A stretch of DNA of 64,000 bases from Clostridiales bacterium (lineage in GTDB: Bacteria > Bacillota > Clostridia > Christensenellales > CAG-314): NCBI GenBank assembly GCA_022508345.1, contig JAFLVK010000002.1, positions 325,649-389,648 of the forward strand. Direction: 5' to 3'. Of the stretch, positions 24,163 through 56,366 are shown in pieces. The notes under the pieces were generated by a model. It had not been told where the DNA came from, did not search any database, and saw nothing but the letters and a program-made list of their open reading frames with translations. Made by a program: the position numbers and the translations under genes. Every line of letters starts with the position of its first letter. Position 1 is the stretch's first letter.

Positions 24163-25326
24163 TCAGTTAGCCCACGCCGAAGGACAAGTTCTGTTATTCT
24201 TGAACCAGTCGGTGTCCTTTAGCTTGGTATCGTTGTTGGAAAAGTACATCGTAATTTTGCCATCGGTGCATGCGAAAACAATATTGCCGTTTAACGGTCC
24301 GTCGTCGATGTCCTTGTAGCTGCCGTTTTGTGTCTGTACCGTTGCCACGTCTGTTGCGTACACCTCGTCGGTGTAGGGTGCAATGCGGTTGATGAAATCC
24401 TGCGTTGGGAATGTGTTGGGCAGATTTTGAGTATATTCTACACTACCTGCAACACAGCAAATGCACACTATTTGCGGCTTGATTTTGCTTAGAAGCACTT
24501 CGTTAGCGGATGTTTTCGACCCGTGGTGTCCGCCCTTGTACAACACAGCCTGGGGCAAGTTGGGATTGCATTCAACAAGCGACTTCTCGCCTGCTTCTTC
24601 CAAATCGCCAAGCAACAGGTAATTGTTGGTTTTGGTTTCGCCGTCCTTTTGATAATCTTGTGTAATTAGCAAGCAAACGGAGTAATCGTTTTCGTTGGAG
24701 GTTTTTTGTTCGTAGAACTTTTGATACAGTATCTTCATTGTGATACCGTAGCTAAGCTCGTACTCGCGCTGTGCTCCGTTTGCATTGTTGTAGCACTCCA
24801 ATGCCGTGTAGACGTTGGCACCTCTAGCCTTTGCTGCGTCGCGCTTTGCACAAAAGTCTTTGTATATTTGCGTATTTTTGTTGGTGCGAGCAAACTGAAT
24901 GATAGTTTCGCACTCGTATCTGTCAAATATTCCCTTTGCAGCAGATGTTCCCACAAAGCCTGCAATGTGATCCTGGTCGGCATGGGTGGCAATGACGTAT
25001 TCCAGCTTGCCGTCGGTGCAGTATTGGTCAACGTAGTCGCCAATAGACTTGGCACTACCCTTTGCCGAGCCGGCATCAATCAAGATGTCAGTGTCGCCTG
25101 CCTTTATGTAAATGCTGTCGCCATTTGAACCGTTACCCAGCTCAATAAAGTGAATGGACAGCGTTTCATTTTTGATTGCGATAGCATCGTAGTTGGCGTT
25201 GGTTTTTTCAAGCAGCAAAGCGTCGAACCAGCCGTGAAAGTAGCCGTAAATGAGTGAGGCGACAATTGCAACAATTAGTACAACAAGCAACACCGTGTAC
25301 AGTGTCTTTTGCTTTTTGTGTGCCAT
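24163..25326 (-). CDS. Membrane-anchored metallo-beta-lactamase-fold hydrolase (ComEC C-terminal type)
   Basis: 387 aa. A single N-terminal helix (about residues 8-30) anchors an extracellular MBL domain. The metal motif is THADQDH, followed by GGHHGSKTS and a D-rich late region, as in the hydrolase domain of ComEC/Rec2 competence proteins; the channel part of ComEC is missing. It is a tandem paralogue of the C-terminal domain of the next gene (25335), sharing IYIKAGDTDILIDAGS and near-identical ends. Possible roles are extracellular nuclease or other phosphodiesterase; unknown. Sits between that gene and aroC with small gaps. Confidence 0.82.
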   Translation of the reverse strand: MAHKKQKTLYTVLLVVLIVAIVASLIYGYFHGWFDALLLEKTNANYDAIAIKNETLSIHFIELGNGSNGDSIYIKAGDTDILIDAGSAKGSAKSIGDYVDQYCTDGKLEYVIATHADQDHIAGFVGTSAAKGIFDRYECETIIQFARTNKNTQIYKDFCAKRDAAKARGANVYTALECYNNANGAQREYELSYGITMKILYQKFYEQKTSNENDYSVCLLITQDYQKDGETKTNNYLLLGDLEEAGEKSLVECNPNLPQAVLYKGGHHGSKTSANEVLLSKIKPQIVCICCVAGSVEYTQNLPNTFPTQDFINRIAPYTDEVYATDVATVQTQNGSYKDIDDGPLNGNIVFACTDGKITMYFSNNDTKLKDTDWFKNNRTCPSAWAN

Positions 25327-25334
25327 AAATTACC

Positions 25335-27386
25335 CTATTCTTGCCATGCCGCGGGACACGTGCGATATTCCTTGAACCAGTCGGTATCCTTGAGCTTGAT
25401 ATTGTTGTTGGAGAAATACATGGTTATTTGTCCATTTGTGCAAGCGAACACAATGTTACCGTTTGCCGGCTCAAAATTCCCCGAACTGTAATTAGTTCCG
25501 TTAGTCGTTACGTAAACCTTGTCTGTATAGGGTGCTATTCTGTCAATAAACTCTTGAGCAGGGAATTGATGTTTATTATCATTAGTATACTCCGAGCTTC
25601 CAATACAGGTACATATGCAAATGCACTTGGGTTGTATCTTGCTCATTAATTCGGTGCTTGCTGCAGTATATGAACCGTGATGACCGCCTTTGTACAGCTC
25701 CATTTCGGGCAAATCGGGATTACATTCCACCAAAGATTTTTCTCCTGCTTCCTCCAAGTCACCCGTAAATAAATAATGGTTGTCGCCTTGAGATATCATC
25801 AAGCAAACGGAGTTGTCATTTTCGTTAGAGGATGCCGAGTGGTAATACTTGTGCTCAAGGATTTCCATTGTAATACCGTCAGCCAACTCGTAAATTTTTT
25901 GCGCTCCGTTACTGTTGTTTATGCACTCCAATGCAGTGTAGTGATTGGCATTGTCACTACTAACCTCATTATTACGCTTGGTATAATAGTCCTTTAATAT
26001 CTGAGTTTCCTTGCTACCTTTGTATGATGTTTGAGCGAAATCAATTATTGTTTCGCACTTATACCTGTCAAAGATACCTTTATTGCTGTTCCCTACAAAG
26101 CCCGCGATATGATCTTGGTGAGCGTGTGTTACGATTACATATTCCAATATTCCGTCTGTACAGTACTGATCTATGTAATTAGATATTGCTGTTGCACTGT
26201 CCTTACGCGAGCCTGCATCAATTAGAATATCCGTGTCGCCTGCCTTGATGTAAACGCTATCGCCCGTATATCTGTTGCCTAACATCAAGAAATGTATGGA
26301 GAGGTTTTCATTTTTGATAATGTTGACATCGTAGTCCGCTTCCTGCGGTTCTTTAATTTCGGCAACAGTGATTTTTATTATTACAGATTTGGTTACACCA
26401 TTGTCGGTGTAGGAAATTTCCCAGTCCTTTTGCCCCTCAGTAGACGTGTCAATAGTAGCAGGCAGCGTGATGTTGGTCACCGTCTTGCTTGTGCCGTTGT
26501 TGTAGTAAGCAGTTACAACAAGTTTGTTTCTGTCCGGTTGTGTGCCGATCATAACCTTGCCACCTTTGTACACTGCTTCAATGCGCTCCAGCGTTGCGGC
26601 AATTACGTTTACACTGAATGTTGCCGTCTTTGTTACGCCGTTTTCAACGTAGGTAACAGTTACAGTTTGTTGACCGACGTCGTTAAACACCTTGTTAGAC
26701 AGTGTGTAGCCGTTAACATTCTTGTTGCTACCATCGCTGTAATATGCAGTTACGGTAATTGTCGTGTCGTCAAGATAAAGTCCAACTACAACGTCACCGC
26801 CCGTATACACCGCTTCAATACGCTCAAGACGTGCAATTACTGTTACCGTAATGTCGTCGGTTTTGGTAACTTCGTCTTCGGTGTAGCTAACTGTTACTGT
26901 TTTGTCGCCTACAGTTGAAGTGTCGCACTCGCCAACGGTAAATGCCGTAACGGCTTTGCTGCTGCCGTCGGAGTACGTTGCAGTAACGCTAATGTTGCCC
27001 TTTGCAAGTGTATCGCCGGTCAATAGCTTTGCACCGTTGTAGGTTGCCGAAATGCCTTGCAACACAACAGGGTCGGGGGCGGGAGTGTTGTCCGTCCATT
27101 TGGCGTAAAAGGTAATGCTGTTTACCACCTTGTATCCCGATTCCGCAATAGGTTGCGTGCAGTTGGCATCTTTGTACCAGCCTTCCAGTGTAAAACCTTC
27201 GCGTGTGAGACTGGGCGGCACAACAATCGTGCCCTGTGCAACCGTTTTCGTTTGCAGCTGTGCCCCGTCGTAATTGGGGTCGAATGTAACCTTCACCATC
27301 ATCGTTACACTGCATGCTGCCAGCATCGTTGCAAGCAGGATAAAACAGCACATTATTGCCAGCGTGTATTTCCATTGACGTTTCAT
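25335..27386 (-). CDS. Lipoprotein with InlB repeat, three Ig-like repeats and a C-terminal metallo-beta-lactamase domain
   Basis: 683 aa. A lipobox LAAC puts the acylated Cys at 25. Residues ~30-95 are an InlB-type repeat ending FYAKW. Three bacterial Ig-like repeats follow (about 108-190, 188-275, 273-352), each with AxYxGG and TVTYxxNGVTK-like phrases. The MBL domain (~365-680) has THAHQDH, GGHHGSYT and a C-terminal TNGQITMYFSNNNIKLKDT shared with its 387-aa neighbour. The HxHxDH form contrasts with HxDxDH in the paralogue, so the pair may differ in metal use. Extracellular hydrolase presented on a stalk; substrate unknown. Confidence 0.82.
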   Translation of the reverse strand: MKRQWKYTLAIMCCFILLATMLAACSVTMMVKVTFDPNYDGAQLQTKTVAQGTIVVPPSLTREGFTLEGWYKDANCTQPIAESGYKVVNSITFYAKWTDNTPAPDPVVLQGISATYNGAKLLTGDTLAKGNISVTATYSDGSSKAVTAFTVGECDTSTVGDKTVTVSYTEDEVTKTDDITVTVIARLERIEAVYTGGDVVVGLYLDDTTITVTAYYSDGSNKNVNGYTLSNKVFNDVGQQTVTVTYVENGVTKTATFSVNVIAATLERIEAVYKGGKVMIGTQPDRNKLVVTAYYNNGTSKTVTNITLPATIDTSTEGQKDWEISYTDNGVTKSVIIKITVAEIKEPQEADYDVNIIKNENLSIHFLMLGNRYTGDSVYIKAGDTDILIDAGSRKDSATAISNYIDQYCTDGILEYVIVTHAHQDHIAGFVGNSNKGIFDRYKCETIIDFAQTSYKGSKETQILKDYYTKRNNEVSSDNANHYTALECINNSNGAQKIYELADGITMEILEHKYYHSASSNENDNSVCLMISQGDNHYLFTGDLEEAGEKSLVECNPDLPEMELYKGGHHGSYTAASTELMSKIQPKCICICTCIGSSEYTNDNKHQFPAQEFIDRIAPYTDKVYVTTNGTNYSSGNFEPANGNIVFACTNGQITMYFSNNNIKLKDTDWFKEYRTCPAAWQE

Positions 27387-31659: not shown

Positions 31660-33048
31660 ATGGCTGAATTAACAATGGACAAGCTGGTAAATTTGTGCAA
31701 AGGCCGCGGCTTTATCTACGCGGGAAGCGAAATTTACGGCGGACTTTCCAACTCGTGGGACTACGGTCCGCTGGGTGTGGAAATGAAAAACAACATCAAG
31801 CAGGTGTGGTACAGAAAGTTTGTCAAGGAAAACCCGCTAAACGTCGGCTTGGACACGGCAATACTTATGAACCCCAAAACATGGGAAGCAAGCGGACACT
31901 TGGGCGGCTTTAGCGACCCGCTGATGGACTGCAAGGGCTGCAAAACCAGATATCGCGCAGACAACCTTATTGAAGAGTACCAGGCAAAGCACAACCTGGC
32001 TAGTACCGTCGCATCGATGTCCGACGAACAGATGTCCGACTACATCAAGGAGCACGAAATACACTGCCCCGTGTGCGGAAAGTGCGATTTTACACCTATA
32101 CGCAAGTTCAACCTTATGTTCAAGACCTTTATCGGTGTTACGGAGAACTCCACGTCTACCGTGTATCTTCGCCCCGAAACAGCGCAAGGTATTTTCGTCA
32201 ATTTCAAAAATGTTTGCCGCACCACCAGGAGGAAATTGCCCTTCGGTATCGGTCAGATAGGTAAGTCATTCCGCAACGAGATTACACCGGGCAACTTCAT
32301 TTTCCGCATACGCGAATTTGAACAAATGGAATTGGAATTTTTCTGCAAGCCGGGCGAAGACCTCCAATGGTTCGACTACTGGAAGAACTTTTGCAAGCAG
32401 TGGCTGCTGGATTTGGGCATGAAGGAAGAAAATCTGCGCCTGCGCGACCACGACAAGGACGAGCTGTGCTTCTACAGCAAGGCAACCACCGACTTCGAGG
32501 TTAAGTTCCCGTTCGGTTGGGGTGAGCTGTGGGGAATTGCCGACCGCACCGACTACGACCTTACGCGCCATTCGGAAACAAGCGGCGAAACACTTGACTA
32601 CACCGACCCGCAAACAAACGAACGCTTTATCCCGTATGTAATCGAGCCCAGCCTTGGCGCGGACAGAGCATTCCTTGCGTTCCTTGCCAACGCGTACGAC
32701 GAGGAAGTTGTTGGAGAGGGCGACACACGCGTTGTGCTCCACCTCCACCCCGAGCTTGCACCTGTAAAGGCTTGCGTGTTGCCGCTGTCCAAAAAGCTGG
32801 CGGAACCTGCAACGGCGCTTTACAACGACTTGCTCAAGGAGTTTACCTGCGACTACGACGAAGCAGGCTCCATTGGTAAACGCTACCGCCGTCAGGACGA
32901 AATAGGAACACCATTCTGCATTACCGTTGACTTCGACACGGAAACAGACGGCTGCGTAACCGTTCGCGACCGCGACACCATGCAACAGGAACGCGTGGCA
33001 ATTGCCGAGTTAAAGGACTACTTGAAAAAGAGAATATTCATATATTAA
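31660..33048 (+). CDS. glyS: Glycyl-tRNA synthetase (alpha2, class II)
   Basis: 462 aa, the single-chain dimeric type used by Gram-positives. Motifs: [14 protein letters not shown] near the N terminus, a zinc-type insertion with [12 protein letters not shown] and CPVCGKCDF, motif 2 [25 protein letters not shown] and motif 3 [10 protein letters not shown]. It charges tRNA-Gly in the cytoplasm. CAGGAGATATT precedes the ATG. Single-gene unit closed by a terminator. Confidence 0.97.
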
Positions 33049-33169: not shown

Positions 33170-36100
33170 TTAGTTGTTTCGGCTGTAGCCACAATCCTCG
33201 CAGATATCGCCATCGCCGAAACTGTGCTCTTCGTATACCCATTCTTCCTCAGTCTGGCAAAAGCCTTGATGTCTATCATCGTTAAACTCATTCCAAGATT
33301 CCACTTCGTGAATGTGACGCGGTGCCCCGCAATCGTCACAAACGTCAGGGTCTTCGTCAAACGAATGCTCTTGCCACTCGGTAAACTGACATACTGTACA
33401 TCTCTTTATATGACCGAAAAAATCCGTGTCTTCTACAACGTAGTTGTGCTCGTGTTCTTCGTACTCACACATCGTGCAAAAATGATCTTCGCCAAATTGG
33501 TGATCTTGCCAGTCGTACGTTCCACATCCCGGGCAATATACCGTGTGAGCGTATTGGTCGTAACTGTGTGTATATACCCAATGGTGATGATGTCTCTCAG
33601 CATGACAACGCTCACACGTTTCCAAATCGTCATCCTCACCGAAGTAATGCTCTTCCTCAATCATCACACCGCATTCGCAAACGGCAAAGTGCGTTGCGTA
33701 GTTATATGAGTTGTCAATGTAGTGATCCACGCTGTGCCCGTGATTTTGCGCCTGACAAACGGAACACAGTTCATCAGTTTCTTCAAAATCATGGTAATCA
33801 CTTTCTTCTTCACCGCAGTCGCAACGCCAATAATGACATTCAGCGTCTTGCTTGTAAAGTTGGAAATCGTGAACGTGCCTGATGTATCCGCACATGTCGC
33901 AAGTCACTTCGTCATCACCCCATTCGTGCTCCCCGTAAATGTCCTCTCCGCATTCGTGGCATTGACCGTAATGTGTGTAATCGTCGCCATCAAACCAGTA
34001 TATGTGATGCTCGTGAGCCTCGGCGTTGCAGTCTCTACAACGGCCGGTTTCTTCGTCAATATCATGTGGCTCTAGCAGGGCATCGTATATGTTGTCACCC
34101 TGCATCACACCGCATTCGCATGACCAGATGTGTCGATTGGGGTTGGAGGAGGGAGCCCATCTGTCATAGATGTGATCGTGATTGAGCGCATGACACACGT
34201 CACAAACGTCTCCCACAAATTTGTGCTCATCCCAAATGGAATCACCGCAAGACGTACAACTTATGCTGTGCTGTGTCTCGCTGATAAACCAAATTACCCA
34301 AGTGTGAACGTGACGCTCGTAACCGCAAACCTCGCAAATATTGTGCTCGTTGAAGGTGTGCTTTGCTCTAACGTAACCGAATTGTCCACACTCGCAGCCC
34401 ATTTCGTGATACTCGGTATTCCAGTCGTTGGGAATCCACTGATTGTACACGTGCTTGTGCTCCGGCTCGTTACAAACTACGCAAATACCGGCGCTGTTAA
34501 AGCGGTGTTCTTCCGTGTCACTGTAGCCACAGGTAGTGCAAACAATGTAGTGGAAGTAGTAATAATTGTTCTCGGGGTCAACTGTGAAGCTGTGTGTGTG
34601 ATATGCTCTACCGCAAACTATACAATAGGTGTTGCTCTCGTCCCACACGTGTTTTTCGTTTTGTATGAAATTACCGCATTCCTCACAGTAACCGAAGTGA
34701 CTTTCGCCGTCTTGGTCGCTATTATCTATACTATGGAAATGGCGGTCATATCCGCAAATTTCACATTTATTTTCTTCATTCCATTTGTGGTATCCGCCGG
34801 TGCCACTGTTACATATATGACACCACACGTCATGTTCAATTTCGTCGCAAAATGCAACATTATATTGGTGATAATGCCTTTCCTTGCCACATACAGAACA
34901 ATGGTCGGGGTCCGCGCCGTCAAATTCACACTCTACCGCGTGTCTCTCACCGCAATCGGAGCAATACAGTGTGTGATAGTTGAGTTCGCCAGAAACGGTA
35001 ACAGTCCACTGGTGAGTGTGCCTTGCTGCTCCGCAAGCTACACAGTGATCGGGGTCCGCCTCTGTGTAAATATGCTGACGGCTGCTGTCGCTACCGGTGC
35101 TCTGTACGCCACATTCCTCGCACACAAGGCTGTGCCATTCAATGTCGTTCCTTGAGGGAATCCATTTGTTAAAGTTGTGCTCGTGATTCATAGCTCCGCA
35201 AACGGTACAAACGCCGTCATTGTCGTAGTCGTGATCGCCACTTTCCCACATATAGCAAACCGGACATTCACGCGCGTGTTCGTCATCGTATATTATCCAC
35301 GACCAACTGTGCTCGTGAGGTGTTGCATTCGGTACGTCTATTACCGTTGAGCCAAGTTTGTTGAGAGTTACTGTAAATTTCTCTTCGTTGTTATCTATTT
35401 CGGTAATCTTAATTGAAACAACCTCTCCGTAATTGAAGACCAATTCGACTGTAGCATTGGTAAATTCTTTACCAATCAAGAAGTTATCCAACCTAAATTC
35501 CAAGCCTTCAGCAACGTACTTGTCTGTATTTAATGTAAAGTCGTCCCAGAAATCAGCCAAAACGTCAAATCCATAAAGGAAAAAGTCAACATAATTCAAA
35601 TATTCGGCAATTTCTTCGTATTCGCTTGCGTCCAGTTTCTCCCAAACACCGTCGGAAATTTCAATATATAGCCAGATAGCGCCGTCTTCATCAATCTCAA
35701 CTAGTTGGCTTGCGTATTCTGATACGATGAGCAACACGTTGCCAGCACGCTTGTACGCTTCCATTCCCTTGTCGCTTGTGCACGTCAAGGACCAATTGGA
35801 CAAATTTTTGAGTTCAAGTGCTTTGGCAAAGGTTTCTTCGTCCACTGTGGGGATGGAGGTATCGGGCTTGGAGTGTCCGCATACCGTACACTTGTTGTCC
35901 GTTCCCCAGGTGTGGGCTACTTTTACGTCAATTTCACCGTCGTGGCAGGTTGCTTCGTGCCAGTGGTAAACATTGTTGGAGCTCCACTCCGTTGAGAACT
36001 TGTGTTTGTGCAAGGGTTCAATTTCAAATGATGTGTTGCCCACCTTGTCCAGGGTGTATTCGTAGTAGTCGCCATCCTCGACAGAGCCCAGTGTAACGTG

Positions 36101-36991
36101 AGCATAGTACAAGCTGTTTCCCACAAAACGTACGGTAAACGTACCCCATCCGTTTTGATTGATTTCCCAAGTGTATTCGCCCGTTTCTTGGTTAAACGCA
36201 AACTCGCTGAAGCTGTCTGCAATCTGTAGCGAACCTATCACCGTTAAGCAATCCTCAAGACTGTTGTCTATGATAGCCTGTATTTCCAATTCCTCGTTGA
36301 ACCATGATGTCCATATACCACCCATCTTGTGATAGACAGTTGCGCCCACTTCATGGTAAATGACATACTGTTCCATGTCGTACCACTCATCATACAATAT
36401 AACATGCGCTTGATTGGATACGATTTCCGCAAATAACAGCTCTTCCATTTCGCCGTCACTGAACTTCTCTTTCCTGACGGTGAAATCGGTGATATCTGCC
36501 AGCGCACCAAATGCCGCTGCCCAGGTTGCTTCGTCTACTTGGCTGAACTCCAGCTTTCCTTGGTAGTCACACACAGTGCATCTATTTGCATTGTTAAGCT
36601 CGTGCTGAGCAGGCGTCGATGTTTCATCGCAGCCTTCGTTTTGACACACACGCCAGTGTCCGTTTTCATTCTTTTTCCATTCACCTGTGAAGTCATGGTC
36701 AAGCATGCCTACGGTTGTTTGTGCATTAAGTACCCTGTCGCAAACCGAGCACTTTTTACCCTCGGTAAGCCCCGTTTGAGTACAGCTTGCACCCACAGCA
36801 GGGACAACCTGTTCAGTGTGTGCTGCCACGTCGCTCTTTTCACCACAAGTGCACTCATGCCAGTGGTTGGTTCCGTCGCTGCTCCATTCAGCAGCGAACT
36901 TGTGAGTGTGCCCGTTATTGCAAGCCGAAAGCATGCCCACACAGCTGAGCGCAAGCACCAAGCACAACACTACCGTCAATACTCTTTTCAT
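33170..36991 (-). CDS. Giant lipoprotein of tandem Cys/His zinc-ribbon-like repeats
   Basis: The ATG at 36991 behind AAGGAGACAAAC replaces the track start, giving 1273 aa. The signal peptide ends in lipobox LSAC (Cys24). Three Cys/His ribbon units and two globular domains of ~150-200 aa alternate in the N-terminal half; the globular domains share a TWAAAFGAL/TFAKALELKN start and are probably duplicated. From about residue 620 to the end run 15 tandem units of 40-55 aa, each H-x-H, then H-x4-C-x2-C-G, H, and C-x2-C. The last unit has lost its first CxxC (CQTE). With ~70 Cys outside the cell, metal binding is likely but untested; the family is not recognised. Promoter TTGACA-17-TATACT. Confidence 0.85.
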   Translation of the reverse strand: MKRVLTVVLCLVLALSCVGMLSACNNGHTHKFAAEWSSDGTNHWHECTCGEKSDVAAHTEQVVPAVGASCTQTGLTEGKKCSVCDRVLNAQTTVGMLDHDFTGEWKKNENGHWRVCQNEGCDETSTPAQHELNNANRCTVCDYQGKLEFSQVDEATWAAAFGALADITDFTVRKEKFSDGEMEELLFAEIVSNQAHVILYDEWYDMEQYVIYHEVGATVYHKMGGIWTSWFNEELEIQAIIDNSLEDCLTVIGSLQIADSFSEFAFNQETGEYTWEINQNGWGTFTVRFVGNSLYYAHVTLGSVEDGDYYEYTLDKVGNTSFEIEPLHKHKFSTEWSSNNVYHWHEATCHDGEIDVKVAHTWGTDNKCTVCGHSKPDTSIPTVDEETFAKALELKNLSNWSLTCTSDKGMEAYKRAGNVLLIVSEYASQLVEIDEDGAIWLYIEISDGVWEKLDASEYEEIAEYLNYVDFFLYGFDVLADFWDDFTLNTDKYVAEGLEFRLDNFLIGKEFTNATVELVFNYGEVVSIKITEIDNNEEKFTVTLNKLGSTVIDVPNATPHEHSWSWIIYDDEHARECPVCYMWESGDHDYDNDGVCTVCGAMNHEHNFNKWIPSRNDIEWHSLVCEECGVQSTGSDSSRQHIYTEADPDHCVACGAARHTHQWTVTVSGELNYHTLYCSDCGERHAVECEFDGADPDHCSVCGKERHYHQYNVAFCDEIEHDVWCHICNSGTGGYHKWNEENKCEICGYDRHFHSIDNSDQDGESHFGYCEECGNFIQNEKHVWDESNTYCIVCGRAYHTHSFTVDPENNYYYFHYIVCTTCGYSDTEEHRFNSAGICVVCNEPEHKHVYNQWIPNDWNTEYHEMGCECGQFGYVRAKHTFNEHNICEVCGYERHVHTWVIWFISETQHSISCTSCGDSIWDEHKFVGDVCDVCHALNHDHIYDRWAPSSNPNRHIWSCECGVMQGDNIYDALLEPHDIDEETGRCRDCNAEAHEHHIYWFDGDDYTHYGQCHECGEDIYGEHEWGDDEVTCDMCGYIRHVHDFQLYKQDAECHYWRCDCGEEESDYHDFEETDELCSVCQAQNHGHSVDHYIDNSYNYATHFAVCECGVMIEEEHYFGEDDDLETCERCHAERHHHHWVYTHSYDQYAHTVYCPGCGTYDWQDHQFGEDHFCTMCEYEEHEHNYVVEDTDFFGHIKRCTVCQFTEWQEHSFDEDPDVCDDCGAPRHIHEVESWNEFNDDRHQGFCQTEEEWVYEEHSFGDGDICEDCGYSRNN

Positions 36992-37065
36992 GTTTGTCTC
37001 CTTTTTTATTTTTGTTTTCCACATTAAATGTATATTATATATACTATTTATGTTATCTATCTGCT

Positions 37066-37094
37066 AGTATACCCTCCCCCACCTATCTTGTCAA
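37066..37094 (-). promoter_or_regulatory. Promoter of the ribbon-repeat lipoprotein gene
   Basis: TTGACA at 37094-37089, 17-bp G-rich spacer, TATACT at 37071-37066; leader about 70 nt. Confidence 0.75.
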
Positions 37095-37260: not shown

Positions 37261-37289
37261 TTGCAAAAAAATCAAAAATTAGGTATAAT
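37261..37289 (+). promoter_or_regulatory. tex promoter
   Basis: TTGCAA at 37261-37266, 17-bp spacer, TATAAT at 37284-37289. It occupies the first codons of the track ORF, so that start is wrong. The rest of the 37095-37260 gap is AT-rich with nothing else recognised. Confidence 0.7.
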
Positions 37290-37317
37290 AAAAAACAGCA
37301 ACTACAGGAGCAAAACT

Positions 37318-39462
37318 ATGGATATCATTCAAAAAATTACCGAAGAACTTGAAGTGTCAAAGTGGCAGGTAGAAGCTGCCGTCAATTTGATTGACGAGGG
37401 CAACACCATTCCCTTTATTTCCCGTTACCGCAAGGAAGCTACGGGGCAGCTAAACGACGAACAGCTGAGAAAGCTATTCGAACGCTTGACGTATCTGCGC
37501 AACCTTGAGGAAAAGAAGGCGCAGGTGCTGAAGAGCATTGAAGAGCAAGGCATGCTCACAGACGAGCTGCGCGATCAAATAATTGCCGCCGAAACACAGG
37601 TTGCAGTTGACGACTTGTACCGTCCTTACCGCCCCAAGCGCAGAACGCGCGCAATCATTGCAAAGGAAAAGGGCTTGGAGCCGCTTGCCAACATAATTTT
37701 GCTGCAAACAACAGACAAGCCTATTATTGAAACAGCAGCGGAATACGTCAACCCCGAAAAGGGCGTGGAAACGGCGGAAGAGGCTGTACAGGGCGCATTG
37801 GACATCATTGCGGAAATCATTTCCGATGACGCCACCTACCGCACTGCTATTCGCGACCTCACATTCCGCTTGGGCAAGATAACCTCCGTTGCCAAGAAGC
37901 CGGAAATCAAGACGGTGTACGACAACTACTACAGCTACGAGGAAGACATTGCAAAGATACAGGGTCACCGCGTGCTTGCGGTAAACCGCGGCGAAGCGGA
38001 AAAGGTGCTTACGGTAAAGATTGTTGCTCCGACGGAAATTATCAACGATTACTTAGTACGTCACGTTGTAACACGCAGCAACGTACACACCGAGGAATTG
38101 CTGAAAACCGCAATCAACGACAGCTACACTCGCCTGATTGAGCCCAGCATTGCAACGGAAATACGCAACATGCTCACGGAAAAGGCAGAAGAGGGCGCAA
38201 TTGCCGTATTTGGCAAAAACCTCGAACAGCTACTCATGCAACCGCCCATCGTCGGTCAGGTTGTGCTTGGCTGGGACCCCGCATTCCGTACAGGCTGCAA
38301 GCTTGCAGTAGTTGACGCAACGGGCAAGGTACTGGACACAACGGTAATTTACCCCACAGCGCCCACCACTCCCGAAAAGATTGCCAAGGCAAAGCTAACG
38401 CTTCAACAGCTTATAAAGAAATACAATATCACGCTAATATCTTTGGGTAACGGCACAGCTTCGCGCGAAAGTGAACAGATAATTGTTGAACTGCTGCACG
38501 AAACAGGACTGCCCGTACAGTACGTTATCGTCAACGAGGCGGGCGCATCCGTTTACTCGGCAAGCAAGCTAGCTACAGAGGAATTTCCCACATTTGACGT
38601 GGGTCAACGAAGCGCCGCAAGCATTGCCCGCAGGCTTCAGGACCCATTGAGCGAACTGGTAAAAATCGACCCCAAGTCCATAGGCGTAGGTCAATACCAA
38701 CACGACATGAACCAAAAGAAGCTGGGCGAAACGCTAAACGGCGTGGTTGAAGATTGCGTAAACAAGGTCGGCGTAGATTTGAACACGGCAAGCGCCCCAC
38801 TGCTTCAATATGTGTCTGGCGTAACCAGCTCCATAGCTAAAAATATCGTAGCCTACCGCGAAAAGCACGGACGCTTCCAAAACCGCGAACAGCTGTTAAA
38901 TGTTGACAAGCTGGGTGCAAAGGCATATCAGCAATGTGCGGGCTTCTTGCGTATCAGCGGTGGCGACAACTTCCTAGACGGAACAAGCGTACACCCGGAA
39001 AGCTACGAAGCAACACTGAAGCTAATGCACATATTGAACATTGCCCCCGAAAACATCGGCAACCTAGCAGGACTTAGCAAAACCAGCATCAACTACGGCA
39101 AGCTATCCAAGGACTTGGACATCGGCGAACTGACACTACGCGACATCGTGTCCGAACTGGAAAAGCCCGCGCGCGACCCAAGAGACGAAATGCCCAAGCC
39201 AATACTGAGAAACGACGTCCTGGAAATGAAAGACCTGAAAGAAGGCATGATACTGAAGGGAACCGTACGCAACGTAATAGACTTCGGCGTGTTCGTAGAC
39301 ATTGGCGTACATCAGGACGGACTTGTGCACATTTCGCAGCTGTCCTCCACCAAGTTTGTAAAGCACCCGCTTGAGGTTGTAAAGGTGGGCGACGTTGTAG
39401 ACGTCAAGGTGCTGTCGGTAGATTTGGACAAAAAGAGAATATCTTTGACAATGAAGCTGTAA
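37318..39462 (+). CDS. tex: Tex-family RNA-binding transcription accessory protein
   Basis: ATG at 37318 after CAGGAG gives 714 aa; the upstream TTG in the track lies in the promoter. Domains in order: Tex N-terminal helical region with IPFISRYRKEATG, YqgF/RNase-H-like fold (GWDPAFRTGCKLAVVD), helix-hairpin-helix (LNTASAPLLQYVSG...NREQLLNV), and a C-terminal S1 domain (ILKGTVRNVIDFGVFVDIG). Tex binds nucleic acid and is linked to transcription or rRNA maturation. Stands alone with its own terminator. Confidence 0.95.
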   Translation: MDIIQKITEELEVSKWQVEAAVNLIDEGNTIPFISRYRKEATGQLNDEQLRKLFERLTYLRNLEEKKAQVLKSIEEQGMLTDELRDQIIAAETQVAVDDLYRPYRPKRRTRAIIAKEKGLEPLANIILLQTTDKPIIETAAEYVNPEKGVETAEEAVQGALDIIAEIISDDATYRTAIRDLTFRLGKITSVAKKPEIKTVYDNYYSYEEDIAKIQGHRVLAVNRGEAEKVLTVKIVAPTEIINDYLVRHVVTRSNVHTEELLKTAINDSYTRLIEPSIATEIRNMLTEKAEEGAIAVFGKNLEQLLMQPPIVGQVVLGWDPAFRTGCKLAVVDATGKVLDTTVIYPTAPTTPEKIAKAKLTLQQLIKKYNITLISLGNGTASRESEQIIVELLHETGLPVQYVIVNEAGASVYSASKLATEEFPTFDVGQRSAASIARRLQDPLSELVKIDPKSIGVGQYQHDMNQKKLGETLNGVVEDCVNKVGVDLNTASAPLLQYVSGVTSSIAKNIVAYREKHGRFQNREQLLNVDKLGAKAYQQCAGFLRISGGDNFLDGTSVHPESYEATLKLMHILNIAPENIGNLAGLSKTSINYGKLSKDLDIGELTLRDIVSELEKPARDPRDEMPKPILRNDVLEMKDLKEGMILKGTVRNVIDFGVFVDIGVHQDGLVHISQLSSTKFVKHPLEVVKVGDVVDVKVLSVDLDKKRISLTMKL

Positions 39463-39516: not shown

Positions 39517-40779
39517 TTACTTTTTCTTTATATGGCGGAATATTTCCTCTGTTGCAAGGCGTGCTTTCGCAACGGAAACGGAGCTGTCCTTTGGGAAACA
39601 ATAGTAAAGCATTGCGTTGTTACCTATGCAAATCACGTCGCCAATCTCATACCACAGATAATCGGCATACAAGCTGTAGGATACACTTGCCGGCTGGAAG
39701 TAATCTAGCTCACCCTCCGCTGCCGTTAAGTGGAAGCCCGTTACATCGTGTGTGAGATGCCCCGAACCTATGTTGTACACAGCCTTGGTGCCCTTCATCA
39801 CTATCACGTCTACGTCCGTATCCAGCCTGTATTGCCCTGCTTCAATTTCTTTGCGTACGCACTGCCTTTGCCAATTGTACCAGCTGGGGATGTGCGCTAT
39901 TTCCGTCTCACCGTTTACCGCACGCATAAAGCCGTGTTCGGTAAGCTCGTAAGTTTTGTTGCAGCTGTGGCAGGTAACGTGAATACCCTTGCCTTCCATT
40001 TGCCCTTCCGTGTTACAATGCGGACACTTGTACAGTACGCGCTGCAGGTGATCGGCGCGAAAGTCCTCGTCAATTACGATATCGTTGTCCTGTTGATAGC
40101 GGAAATTGTCAAAGGAGAAACGCTTGTGCACTTCTTCATTTATCTGCTCAACAGACATTTCTACAATTTGCTCGGGTGTGAGCATGTACTCCATTATTGC
40201 AGAAACCTCAACCTTGCGCTGTTGCAAGCCGTTGTACAATGGGTCGTACAAAAAATCGCCAAACGTAGTTACCATGACAACGGGCACCTTGAACATTTTG
40301 ATAAATTTGCCCAACCCGTAAGGCAACGTCGTTGCAGTGCCGTCAAACGAGTAGCTTGCTTCGGGAAACATCAATACGGAGGTGTGCAGCTTGTCAAAGC
40401 AGTGCTTCATGTGGCGCACCAGCGTTGTGTCGGTTACGAACTTTGTTGTGGGGATACATCCCAGTTGCGTCAGTAGCCACTTTTGACCGACAAATGCGTC
40501 GCTGGTACACACGATATTGAACCGTTGCGGAAATATCCTTTCGGCAATCTTGAGGTCCAAAAAGCTGGAGTGATTCATCAAATACAGGCAGGGCTGTTTT
40601 TTGTTGAAACGCTCCATGTTGACCTTTGTAAAGCGGAAATGCAGCCTTTTCAGCTCCCCTGCGCAGATAACATTTATCAGCGCGCGGAAAAACCTACTAG
40701 GCCGCTTGACCTTTACAGGCTTTTCGCCGGGTAATGCCAAAACCTCGCTGTACGTTAAGTTTTTAACCTTGATTTTCAC
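39517..40779 (-). CDS. PlsC-like acyltransferase with C-terminal zinc ribbon (paralogue 1)
   Basis: The track start at 40860 would overlap the upstream gene by ~100 bp; a GTG at 40779 (VKIKVKNLTYSEV) reduces this to 17 bp and gives ~420 aa, though the start is uncertain. The acyltransferase core has LMNHSSFLD (the HX4D site with His and Asp), a MFPEASYSFDG block and GLGKFIKMFKVPVV. After the core comes a zinc ribbon CPHCN...CHSCN and an aromatic tail (IPSWYNWQRQCVRKEIE). The same extended architecture recurs at 55203. Probably acylates a lysophospholipid-like acceptor at the membrane; the role of the ribbon is unknown. Confidence 0.82.
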   Translation of the reverse strand: MKIKVKNLTYSEVLALPGEKPVKVKRPSRFFRALINVICAGELKRLHFRFTKVNMERFNKKQPCLYLMNHSSFLDLKIAERIFPQRFNIVCTSDAFVGQKWLLTQLGCIPTTKFVTDTTLVRHMKHCFDKLHTSVLMFPEASYSFDGTATTLPYGLGKFIKMFKVPVVMVTTFGDFLYDPLYNGLQQRKVEVSAIMEYMLTPEQIVEMSVEQINEEVHKRFSFDNFRYQQDNDIVIDEDFRADHLQRVLYKCPHCNTEGQMEGKGIHVTCHSCNKTYELTEHGFMRAVNGETEIAHIPSWYNWQRQCVRKEIEAGQYRLDTDVDVIVMKGTKAVYNIGSGHLTHDVTGFHLTAAEGELDYFQPASVSYSLYADYLWYEIGDVICIGNNAMLYYCFPKDSSVSVAKARLATEEIFRHIKKK

Positions 40780-41236
40780 TTGTTTCTTCTGTTTTCTCTT
40801 CTTCAGTGTGTTCTTCTGACGTCTGTTCTTCAAGTAGCTTTTTGCGGCTGAACGAAACACACAAATATTCCGTCACAACCACTGCCACAACAAACAGAAC
40901 AGCAATAGCCAGTGGGATAACAAACAAAATGTCCGTGTCAATGCCTGCCCTGTAATACAACACAGGAACAATTGCCCATATGAGCAAGCTACACACATAT
41001 CCCACGATATGAAGCACAAACATCGGGATAATCACGCCGAAATTTTGGACGTTATCCGTGTCGGACTTGTTGCCTATACCTGCAAATAACGCACTGGCAG
41101 GAAACGGAACCTTTACGCGCTTGAAAAAGCGTGGCTCAACGCGCAGCCTGCGTTGTCTCAACGGCACAAGCAATGCCGTACACAGGGAACAAACCAAAGT
41201 TAAAAATACTGTTAAAAATATCAAAAATACATCCAT
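40763..41236 (-). CDS. Membrane protein with acidic tail, unknown
   Basis: 157 aa. One N-terminal helix (4-27), then a basic loop, two more helices (~70-93 and ~103-127) and a Glu/Thr-rich cytoplasmic tail (EEQTSEEHTEEEKTEET). No family recognised. It has promoter TTGACA-16-TAAAAT and overlaps the acyltransferase gene downstream, so the two are likely translated together and may act in the same membrane process. Confidence 0.75.
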   Translation of the reverse strand: MDVFLIFLTVFLTLVCSLCTALLVPLRQRRLRVEPRFFKRVKVPFPASALFAGIGNKSDTDNVQNFGVIIPMFVLHIVGYVCSLLIWAIVPVLYYRAGIDTDILFVIPLAIAVLFVVAVVVTEYLCVSFSRKKLLEEQTSEEHTEEEKTEETSENQG

Positions 41237-54526: not shown

Positions 54527-55021
54527 TTAAAAGTCGTCGTCTTCGTCCTCTTCTTCATCATCGTCGTCGAAGTCGTCGTCGAAATCTACATCGTCGAAGT
54601 CGTCCGTGAGGTCGTCAGGATAGTCGTCCAGTTCGATATCCATGTTTTCTTCGTCCTCGAAATCGTCATCGAAGTCGGCATCTTCCTCCATTTCTTCAAG
54701 GGGAATAACGTCCTCTTCTTCGGTATCTTTGGTGTCCTCGTCGTCAAGATAGGTACGCCAGTCTTCGTTGTCCTCGTCCATTTCGCCGCTTTCTTGGCGC
54801 TTGTAGTTAGCAAGACAGTTTTCGCACATGTCCTCGTCCATGCCGATGTAGGACGTTTTGCAAACAGGACACAGCTTGAGTGGTTCGTCGTCGTCAATGA
54901 TGTCGTCCAACAGTACAATACGGCTGTCCAAGCCAAGCTCGGCTTTGCAGATATCGCACATTTCCTCTTCCTGCAAAATATAGTTCAGTTCGCAACGCGG
55001 ACATTTCTTGTATTTTCCCAT
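54527..55021 (-). CDS. Double zinc-ribbon protein with highly acidic tail
   Basis: 164 aa. Two CxxC...CxxC knuckle pairs (CPRC...CDIC, ~7-24; CPVC...CENC, ~51-69) are followed by ~95 residues that are mostly Asp and Glu, ending EEEDEDDDF. No signal peptide. The tail should be disordered and strongly negative. Possible roles are a nucleic-acid mimic or a basic-protein chaperone, but nothing specific is recognised. GGTGAT precedes the ATG. Confidence 0.78.
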   Translation of the reverse strand: MGKYKKCPRCELNYILQEEEMCDICKAELGLDSRIVLLDDIIDDDEPLKLCPVCKTSYIGMDEDMCENCLANYKRQESGEMDEDNEDWRTYLDDEDTKDTEEEDVIPLEEMEEDADFDDDFEDEENMDIELDDYPDDLTDDFDDVDFDDDFDDDDEEEDEDDDF

Positions 55022-55202: not shown

Positions 55203-56366
55203 TTATTTGTTTTGTTCAAGTAAAATTGTTTGCTGCTCTATTGCCAGATTAAGTTTGGTTGTGCACCCCACGTTAGTTAAGCGCTTGAAACGGTACACCG
55301 CTTCATTTGTGGGCAAGTAGATGTATTCGTTGTTGAAGGACAGCGTATAGAATACACCTGCCTTGTAGTGAATGTTTTGGTCGGCAAAGGTTGCAGTGAT
55401 ACCCTCCTTGTCGTGCACCACCACGGCGTCGCCCATGTCTACGTATTTTTTGCCGACAAGCTTTTCCGCGCGGAAGAAGCCTTCGAAACGGTAATTGTCA
55501 TCGGCTACTTCTTGGCGAACACATTCCGTTTGCCATTGGTACCAATCTGTAACCTTGTCAAACTTTCCTCCGACAAGCTGTCCAAGCTTGTTTTGCGTGA
55601 CGGTGTGTCCGCACTTGGAGCAGGTGAGTTCGTGTCCGTGACCCGTCATTGCAAATTCCTGTCCGCACTCGGGGCATTTGTAAAGAATGTTCTCCAGACC
55701 TTCCACCAAATCGGGGACGTCTATTTCGATGTTATTTTCCAGCTGGTAAGCGTAATCGTCGTACGCCAGGTTTTGTACAATTCGGTTGTGAATTTCCTGC
55801 GGCGTGATGGTATCTACTTCTTCAGGAGTAACCGCGACCTTTACGTCCAGCCGCACAGGCACCTTGCGCTTGGTCTTTGTCCAACGCGGCTTGTGCAAAT
55901 ACGTCCCGTTGAAGCACACCGTTACAAGTGGCACCTTTAGCATCTTGACAAGCTTGGCAATTGCCGGCTTGATGATGTTGGGCGTGCCCACCACGGACAG
56001 CTTCGCCTCGGGGTAAATGACTACGGGGCGTTTCTTGGACAACACGTACTTGATGTCGCGAATGAGGGAGGTATCAACGGTAAATTGCTTTTTCGGCAAC
56101 ACGCCCATGCTCTTGATAAGCGACGGCCACTGCACCAGCTGCGTAACGGATATAACGAAGTTTGCGCAGTTGGGGTACATGGATATGATAAGTCCCCCCA
56201 CGTCCACAAAGCTGGCATGGTTTGCCACAACCACAAATGGCGGCTTGAGCCTTTTGAGCGTTCCGTCGGTTATCAGCTTGACGTGTTTTTTAAACGCGGT
56301 TTTGCCGTAGAGGTTGACTCCCGCTCCTATCAAAAATTTATTGGCGAGCTTAACTTTTTTTGCCAT
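55203..56366 (-). CDS. PlsC-like acyltransferase with C-terminal zinc ribbon (paralogue 2)
   Basis: 387 aa. VVANHASFVDVGG supplies the HX4D catalytic site; VIYPEAKLS and KMLKVPLVTVCFNG follow. The zinc ribbon CPECGQEF...CSKCGH and DWYQWQTECVRQE tail parallel those of the 39517 protein, so the two are paralogues of an unusual PlsC variant. The differences at the N terminus and after the ribbon suggest different acceptors. Likely cytoplasmic face of the membrane. Confidence 0.87.
   Translation of the reverse strand: MAKKVKLANKFLIGAGVNLYGKTAFKKHVKLITDGTLKRLKPPFVVVANHASFVDVGGLIISMYPNCANFVISVTQLVQWPSLIKSMGVLPKKQFTVDTSLIRDIKYVLSKKRPVVIYPEAKLSVVGTPNIIKPAIAKLVKMLKVPLVTVCFNGTYLHKPRWTKTKRKVPVRLDVKVAVTPEEVDTITPQEIHNRIVQNLAYDDYAYQLENNIEIDVPDLVEGLENILYKCPECGQEFAMTGHGHELTCSKCGHTVTQNKLGQLVGGKFDKVTDWYQWQTECVRQEVADDNYRFEGFFRAEKLVGKKYVDMGDAVVVHDKEGITATFADQNIHYKAGVFYTLSFNNEYIYLPTNEAVYRFKRLTNVGCTTKLNLAIEQQTILLEQNK

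Follow-up and report, generated by a model that had tools for sequence, protein, structure and literature searches.

A lipoprotein of the Clostridiales carrying a long tandem array of Cys/His units, possibly a zinc-folded surface rod

The window analysed here, the whole stretch of 64,000 nucleotides from the genome of an uncultured gut bacterium of the Clostridiales, carries on its minus strand a gene for a 1273-residue lipoprotein that lies between glyQS (31660-33048, plus strand) and tex (37261-39462, plus strand). As both neighbours are on the opposite strand, the gene is probably transcribed alone. Its features are as follows.

33170..36991, minus strand: whole gene of the 1273-residue lipoprotein (open frame, Shine-Dalgarno, promoter-like site, orthologues)
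37066..37094, minus strand: promoter-like site of the sigma-70 type, TTGACA-17-TATACT, with 11 of 12 consensus matches (a consensus reading only)
36998..37003, minus strand: Shine-Dalgarno AAGGAG, read in the sequence six bases 5' of the ATG at 36991
36923..36991, minus strand: signal peptide, residues 1-23, MKRVLTVVLCLVLALSCVGMLSA, ahead of the lipobox Cys
36920..36922, minus strand: lipobox Cys24 (LSAC), the lipidation site predicted from the sequence
36728..36910, minus strand: N-terminal unit 1, residues 28-88, in the long form of the IgA protease (IgAse) ZBD modules (phmmer to 9qa6_A, whole-sequence E 1.4e-13)
36569..36697, minus strand: N-terminal unit 2, residues 99-141 (A6 profile match, E 1.4e-20)
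36011..36568, minus strand: globular domain A, residues 142-327 (homology to domain B, HMM built from both)
35867..36010, minus strand: unit 3, between domains A and B, residues 328-375 (A6 profile match, E 3.0e-21)
35318..35866, minus strand: globular domain B, residues 376-558, predicted LolA/LprG/LppX fold (AF2 and VIA structure matches)
33173..35317, minus strand: array of 15 units, residues 559-1273 (unit count and AF2 of units 10-14)

The initial annotation had the coordinates, strand, LSAC lipobox and order of parts all correct when checked against the sequence, and its description of three units interleaved with two paralogous domains and followed by 15 tandem units was borne out by the HMM common to domains A and B and by a unit-by-unit count. 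Scans of the full protein against Pfam and NCBIfam gave no family match. The array units are 44-55 residues long and start at residues 559, 603, 658, 706, 751, 798, 845, 894, 938, 993, 1039, 1084, 1134, 1180 and 1226; the array has a net charge of -117 and holds 62 of the 79 Cys and 73 of the 92 His of the protein. Elsewhere in the window, reading by eye picks out two adjoining paralogous secreted proteins of the metallo-beta-lactamase fold (24163-25326 and 25335-27386, both minus strand; HADQDH and HAHQDH motifs), the second of which is a lipoprotein and has repeat-like domains ahead of the metallo-beta-lactamase-fold part. It also picks out two PlsC-like acyltransferases (39517-40860 and 55203-56366, both minus strand), each with a C-terminal zinc-ribbon-like insertion, CPHC...CHSC and CPEC...CSKC, respectively. 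A small protein at 54527-55021 (minus strand) combines CxxC pairs with a very acidic Asp/Glu tail.

The unit itself leads to a single relative of known structure. Searched against PDB sequences with phmmer, the protein gave one strong match, the IgA protease of Thomasclavelia ramosa (9qa6_A, residues 906-973 and 1068-1132), and 9qa6 was likewise the sole match of profile A6, built from the N-terminal units (E 8.4e-11). Profile A2, built from the compact array units, did not list 9qa6; hhalign joins the compact-unit profile to A6 with a probability of 98.1% (E 7e-14). On these sequence comparisons the N-terminal units are the ZBD1/ZBD2 module of the IgAse, and the array, through the hhalign link, a divergent compact form of it. 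ZBD1 and ZBD2 are zinc-binding modules by prediction, with zinc sites placed at subdomain interfaces and CCHH or C3H ligands, and the ZBD1 model spans about 110 A with 129 residues (PMC12237041). Ligand sets of these same CCHH and C3H types can be read in the array units. An AF2 model of units 10-14 (11 sequences, pLDDT 84) repeats three strands per unit, a statement about secondary structure only, and at a pTM of 0.45 the model does not fix the relative orientation of the units. Foldseek and VIA returned nothing convincing for this five-unit model (best E 0.02; best Z 2.9), which is no proof of a new fold. The zinc-ribbon families that came up in single-unit Pfam scans were rejected, the matches being weak and inconsistent, as for any sequence with Cys pairs.

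Within the array the ligand pattern is nearly constant. With the 15 units taken in order and no selection by ligands, the expected residue is present at 118 of 120 positions, the two departures being a His replaced by Cys in unit 3 and one Cys lost in unit 15. H1, H2, H3 and the second Cys pair are retained in 15 of 15 units and the first Cys pair in 14, as is H4, which is Cys in the remaining one. Scanned with a strict unit pattern, the array yields 14 matches, as against a mean of 0.02 and a maximum of 1 over 2000 shuffles of the array. The motif first proposed, HxH...H-x4-C-x2-C-G...H...C-x2-C, needs some correction: ten units have CxxC as their first pair and four have CxC, 'CG' at this place is frequent but not universal, and the last unit lacks the second Cys. 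Once Cys and His are left out the units are mutually only 15% identical, so they are old copies rather than the product of a recent expansion. Among 245 unique unit sequences, the residue in place of His is Cys in 8 of about ten departures at H4 and in four of about ten at H1, the first His of HxH, the H1 column being thinly covered as many matches stop before it. Exchange of His for Cys at these two positions is the behaviour expected of metal ligands and would fit metal ligation.

Two readings that dispense with such a metal site can be judged on this pattern. An electron conduit resembling a multihaem cytochrome might be suspected from the recurring CxxC and numerous His of a protein that an anaerobe exports, but only two of the 28 CxxC motifs are CxxCH; the sequence contradicts a multihaem cytochrome c, and we give this idea practically no weight. 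A disulphide-rich stalk, its Cys pairs oxidised outside the cell and its His incidental, is favoured by the export of a protein with 62 Cys in its array. Yet His is kept along with Cys and the two replace each other at ligand positions, while the genome (about 95% complete) yielded neither DsbA nor VKOR, the two enzymes searched, an absence that fits metal in place of disulphides. The related IgAse, too, has no disulphides in its experimental structures or models despite 24 Cys (PMC12237041). The disulphide reading was rejected on the ligand pattern and on these two enzymes not being found, and is very improbable.

The two globular domains are homologous to one another. Domain B was modelled by AF2 from fifteen sequences with a pLDDT of 91.8 and a pTM of 0.87, and VIA matched the model to mycobacterial LprG (Z 9.9; 4.2 A over 163 residues), LprF (9.8), the LolA-type structure 4mxt (7.1) and LppX (6.9), with Foldseek adding a LolA at 1.9e-4. 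A Z near 10 across nearly the whole domain and a match list drawn from one superfamily support a LolA/LprG/LppX fold for the model of domain B. Domains A and B are predicted to be of a lipid- or hydrophobe-binding type. A Pfam scan of 15 members of the domain family found no convincing family.

The unit is by no means confined to this protein. At E 1e-6 its compact form occurs in 20 of 25 genomes of the genus and 55 of 297 of the order; at the stricter 1e-8 it was found in six of 391 genomes of a class sample, and the N-terminal form at 1e-6 in four of 398 of a phylum sample, the own genome being counted in both. Those relatives that carry names are uncultured Clostridia from metagenomes, several of them from isolates labelled Lapin. 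Most unit-bearing proteins have one to five units. Besides the present protein, long arrays are found in G024 (11 units), in two proteins of G011 (12 and 6-7 units) and in G009 (6), G022 (7) and G021 (6); the unit number of these arrays varies from 6 to 15. The view of the initial annotation that so Cys-rich an exported protein is extraordinary needs qualifying in this light: the unit is present in about a fifth of the sampled genomes of the order, and it is arrays of at least 10 units that were seen in few. A 1033-residue secreted protein of genome G183 (L143:2441-5539, plus strand), without a lipobox, carries about eleven WH-type units amid Thr/Pro-rich stretches, a long array that apparently arose independently in another family of the order. 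A 7474-residue open frame with many Cys/His units of the same type, a giant surface protein, lies on contig C50 of G023. Plasmids and phages searched with the array yielded no match, so nothing points to a gene of a phage or mobile element.

A lipobox is present in at least 48 of the 77 unit-bearing proteins that were fetched with their start intact, and the first unit lies a median of 9 residues behind it, in a sample that is non-random in that loci were fetched with these units as query. The domains that follow are varied and include BspA-type LRR (LRR_5), SBP_bac_5, pectinesterase, phosphatase and starch-binding domains, and in one relative (L025) a Big2-like Ig region, read by eye, occupies the place of the N-terminal units. 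Taken together, the proximity to the lipobox, the variety of the domains behind and the Ig replacement suggest that the unit usually acts as a spacer just behind the lipid anchor. These same two observations, its place behind the lipobox and the Ig region in its stead, along with the IgAse relation, fit the 'zinc-rigidified stalk' that had been put forward as one of two functions.

The other function put forward was a metal sponge. A zinc store or scavenger after the manner of the streptococcal Pht proteins would hold about 30-36 exchangeable zinc ions per molecule and pass them to a transporter; the large number of ligands and the acidity of the array speak for it, as does the precedent of PhtD, which hands zinc to AdcAII (PMC3842936). 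Several observations disfavour it nonetheless. The HxxHxH motif is absent from the protein; the genome (about 95% complete) gave no match to a ZnuA/AdcA-type receptor (PF01297) and no Fur/Zur-family regulator, absences that argue against a scavenger of the Pht type; and the gene has its own promoter-like site with no zinc transport gene adjoining it at the locus. CCHH sites are typically tight and structural, as these sets look to be, and in many unrelated lipoproteins one such unit stands alone as a spacer. We regard a scavenger as unlikely.

Comparison between relatives adds a further trait. Five genomes of the genus (G000, G024, G022, G021 and G011) carry a unit gene between glyQS and tex. 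Ten others (G020, G012, G002, G014, G010, G005, G003, G023, G018 and G004) have none there, tex coming close behind glyQS and starting no more than about 0.8 kb from the fetched start. In the G024 orthologue (L021:1819-4992, minus strand) bases near the start that could not be called make the N-terminal unit unreadable, and the frame continues beyond. The genes at this slot in G021 and G011 (G011b) consist of units only, matching one to one between the two, and have no globular domain; the tail is thus not simply a spacer for the LprG-like domains. Among these genomes tex and glyQS are 82-95% identical but the array protein only 32-53%, and at nonsynonymous sites it is about 5-10 times as distant as tex; dS is saturated, which makes codon-based dN/dS unusable and leaves adaptive change inseparable from weak or relaxed constraint. 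Between relatives Cys is 86-100% and His 69-92% identical, as against 20-44% for other residues, figures taken from full-length pairwise alignments since the column entropies of A2 are biased by the picking of units on their ligand pattern. The ligands are conserved and everything else changes fast, a pattern that supports the selection on metal binding that had been proposed.

Our preferred reading, to which we assign a probability of roughly 0.58, is that of a membrane-anchored surface lipoprotein forming a stiff, disulphide-free rod folded by metal, most likely zinc, with its ligands fixed and its surface changing. Metal would take the place of disulphide bonds in each Cys/His unit, and the simplest division of the eight ligands per unit gives two CCHH sites: H2-H3-C1-C2 within the unit, and H4-C3-C4 completed by H1 of the next. 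The shared HxH would thereby couple neighbouring units into a continuous rod. In this arrangement the N-terminal units would raise the two LolA/LprG-like domains off the membrane and the 15-unit tail would reach further out, through or beyond the wall; scaled by the length of the IgAse ZBD1, the 715 residues of the array would stretch over about 60 nm, sufficient to span a Gram-positive wall. The analysis shows the architecture, the homology with the IgAse ZBD module, the conserved ligands, a predicted domain fold, the position as a spacer and the fast evolution; that the metal is zinc, how the sites pair, that the whole is a rod and what the tail does are things that we infer. Against the rod as a stalk stands the tail, which has no recognisable tip domain, and a stalk of this kind would display only itself.

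That same lack of a tip domain favours the strongest rival, in which the protein is a zinc-dependent homophilic adhesin comparable to staphylococcal Aap, the arrays of neighbouring cells pairing with one another. A long, acidic and fast-evolving array whose unit number varies would suit such a role, and adhesion between Aap molecules is indeed zinc-dependent (PMC9802226), but the Aap repeats are G5-E domains, for which Pfam scans of the present protein gave no G5 match, and the ligand sets here look internal to the fold. An adhesin seems to us rather unlikely, if somewhat less so than the scavenger.

The module as such is already known, as a prediction, from one paper of 2025. New, as far as our searches reach, are its spread among the gut Clostridia of this order, its position behind lipoboxes, the compact array form, the LprG-like partner domains and the combination of fixed ligands with a fast surface. 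It is tempting to propose, with distinctly less confidence than for the rod itself, that the gut Clostridia of this group use an uncatalogued zinc-folded repeat as a general disulphide-free building block of their surface proteins, polymerised here into a hypervariable zinc-stiffened rod in which the shared HxH couples the metal sites and species vary unit number and surface with the ligands fixed. The stiffening of exported proteins in strict anaerobes by means other than disulphides is poorly described, and a module with no Pfam or NCBIfam entry that occurs this widely in the order, often directly behind the lipid anchor, would give many 'hypothetical' lipoproteins an annotation. In the long arrays there is a natural system for testing whether zinc can cross-link an extracellular rod, and their constant ligands and variable surface suggest a structural scaffold whose partner changes, be it host, phage or neighbouring cell.

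Set against known systems, the protein resembles several in part. With LprG, LprF, LppX and LolA it shares the predicted fold of domain B and the lipobox anchor; it differs in having no Pfam match, in the two copies of the domain with a Cys/His unit between them, and in the array that follows. In the B-repeats of Aap and SasG zinc acts between molecules and not inside each unit. They too are long surface repeat proteins with zinc-dependent interactions (PMC9802226), zinc being a prediction for the present protein, but their G5-E domains belong to another fold family. The streptococcal polyhistidine triad proteins are surface repeats of three-stranded units with zinc ligands (PMC3842936), and PhtD is alike in all three respects, the ligands being predicted here; the Pht system differs in its HxxHxH motifs and zinc receptor gene, neither of which was found in the present protein or genome. 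Closest is the IgAse of T. ramosa, whose ZBD modules have a related sequence, the same ligand order (HxH...HWH...C...H...CxxC) and three-stranded sheets, and serve like the present units as spacers of a surface-anchored protein. In the IgAse the subdomains are few, the loop that precedes their second Cys pair is longer, and they belong to a protease anchored in the sortase manner, whereas the present protein has 3+15 mostly compact units, a lipobox anchor, two LprG-like domains and no enzyme.
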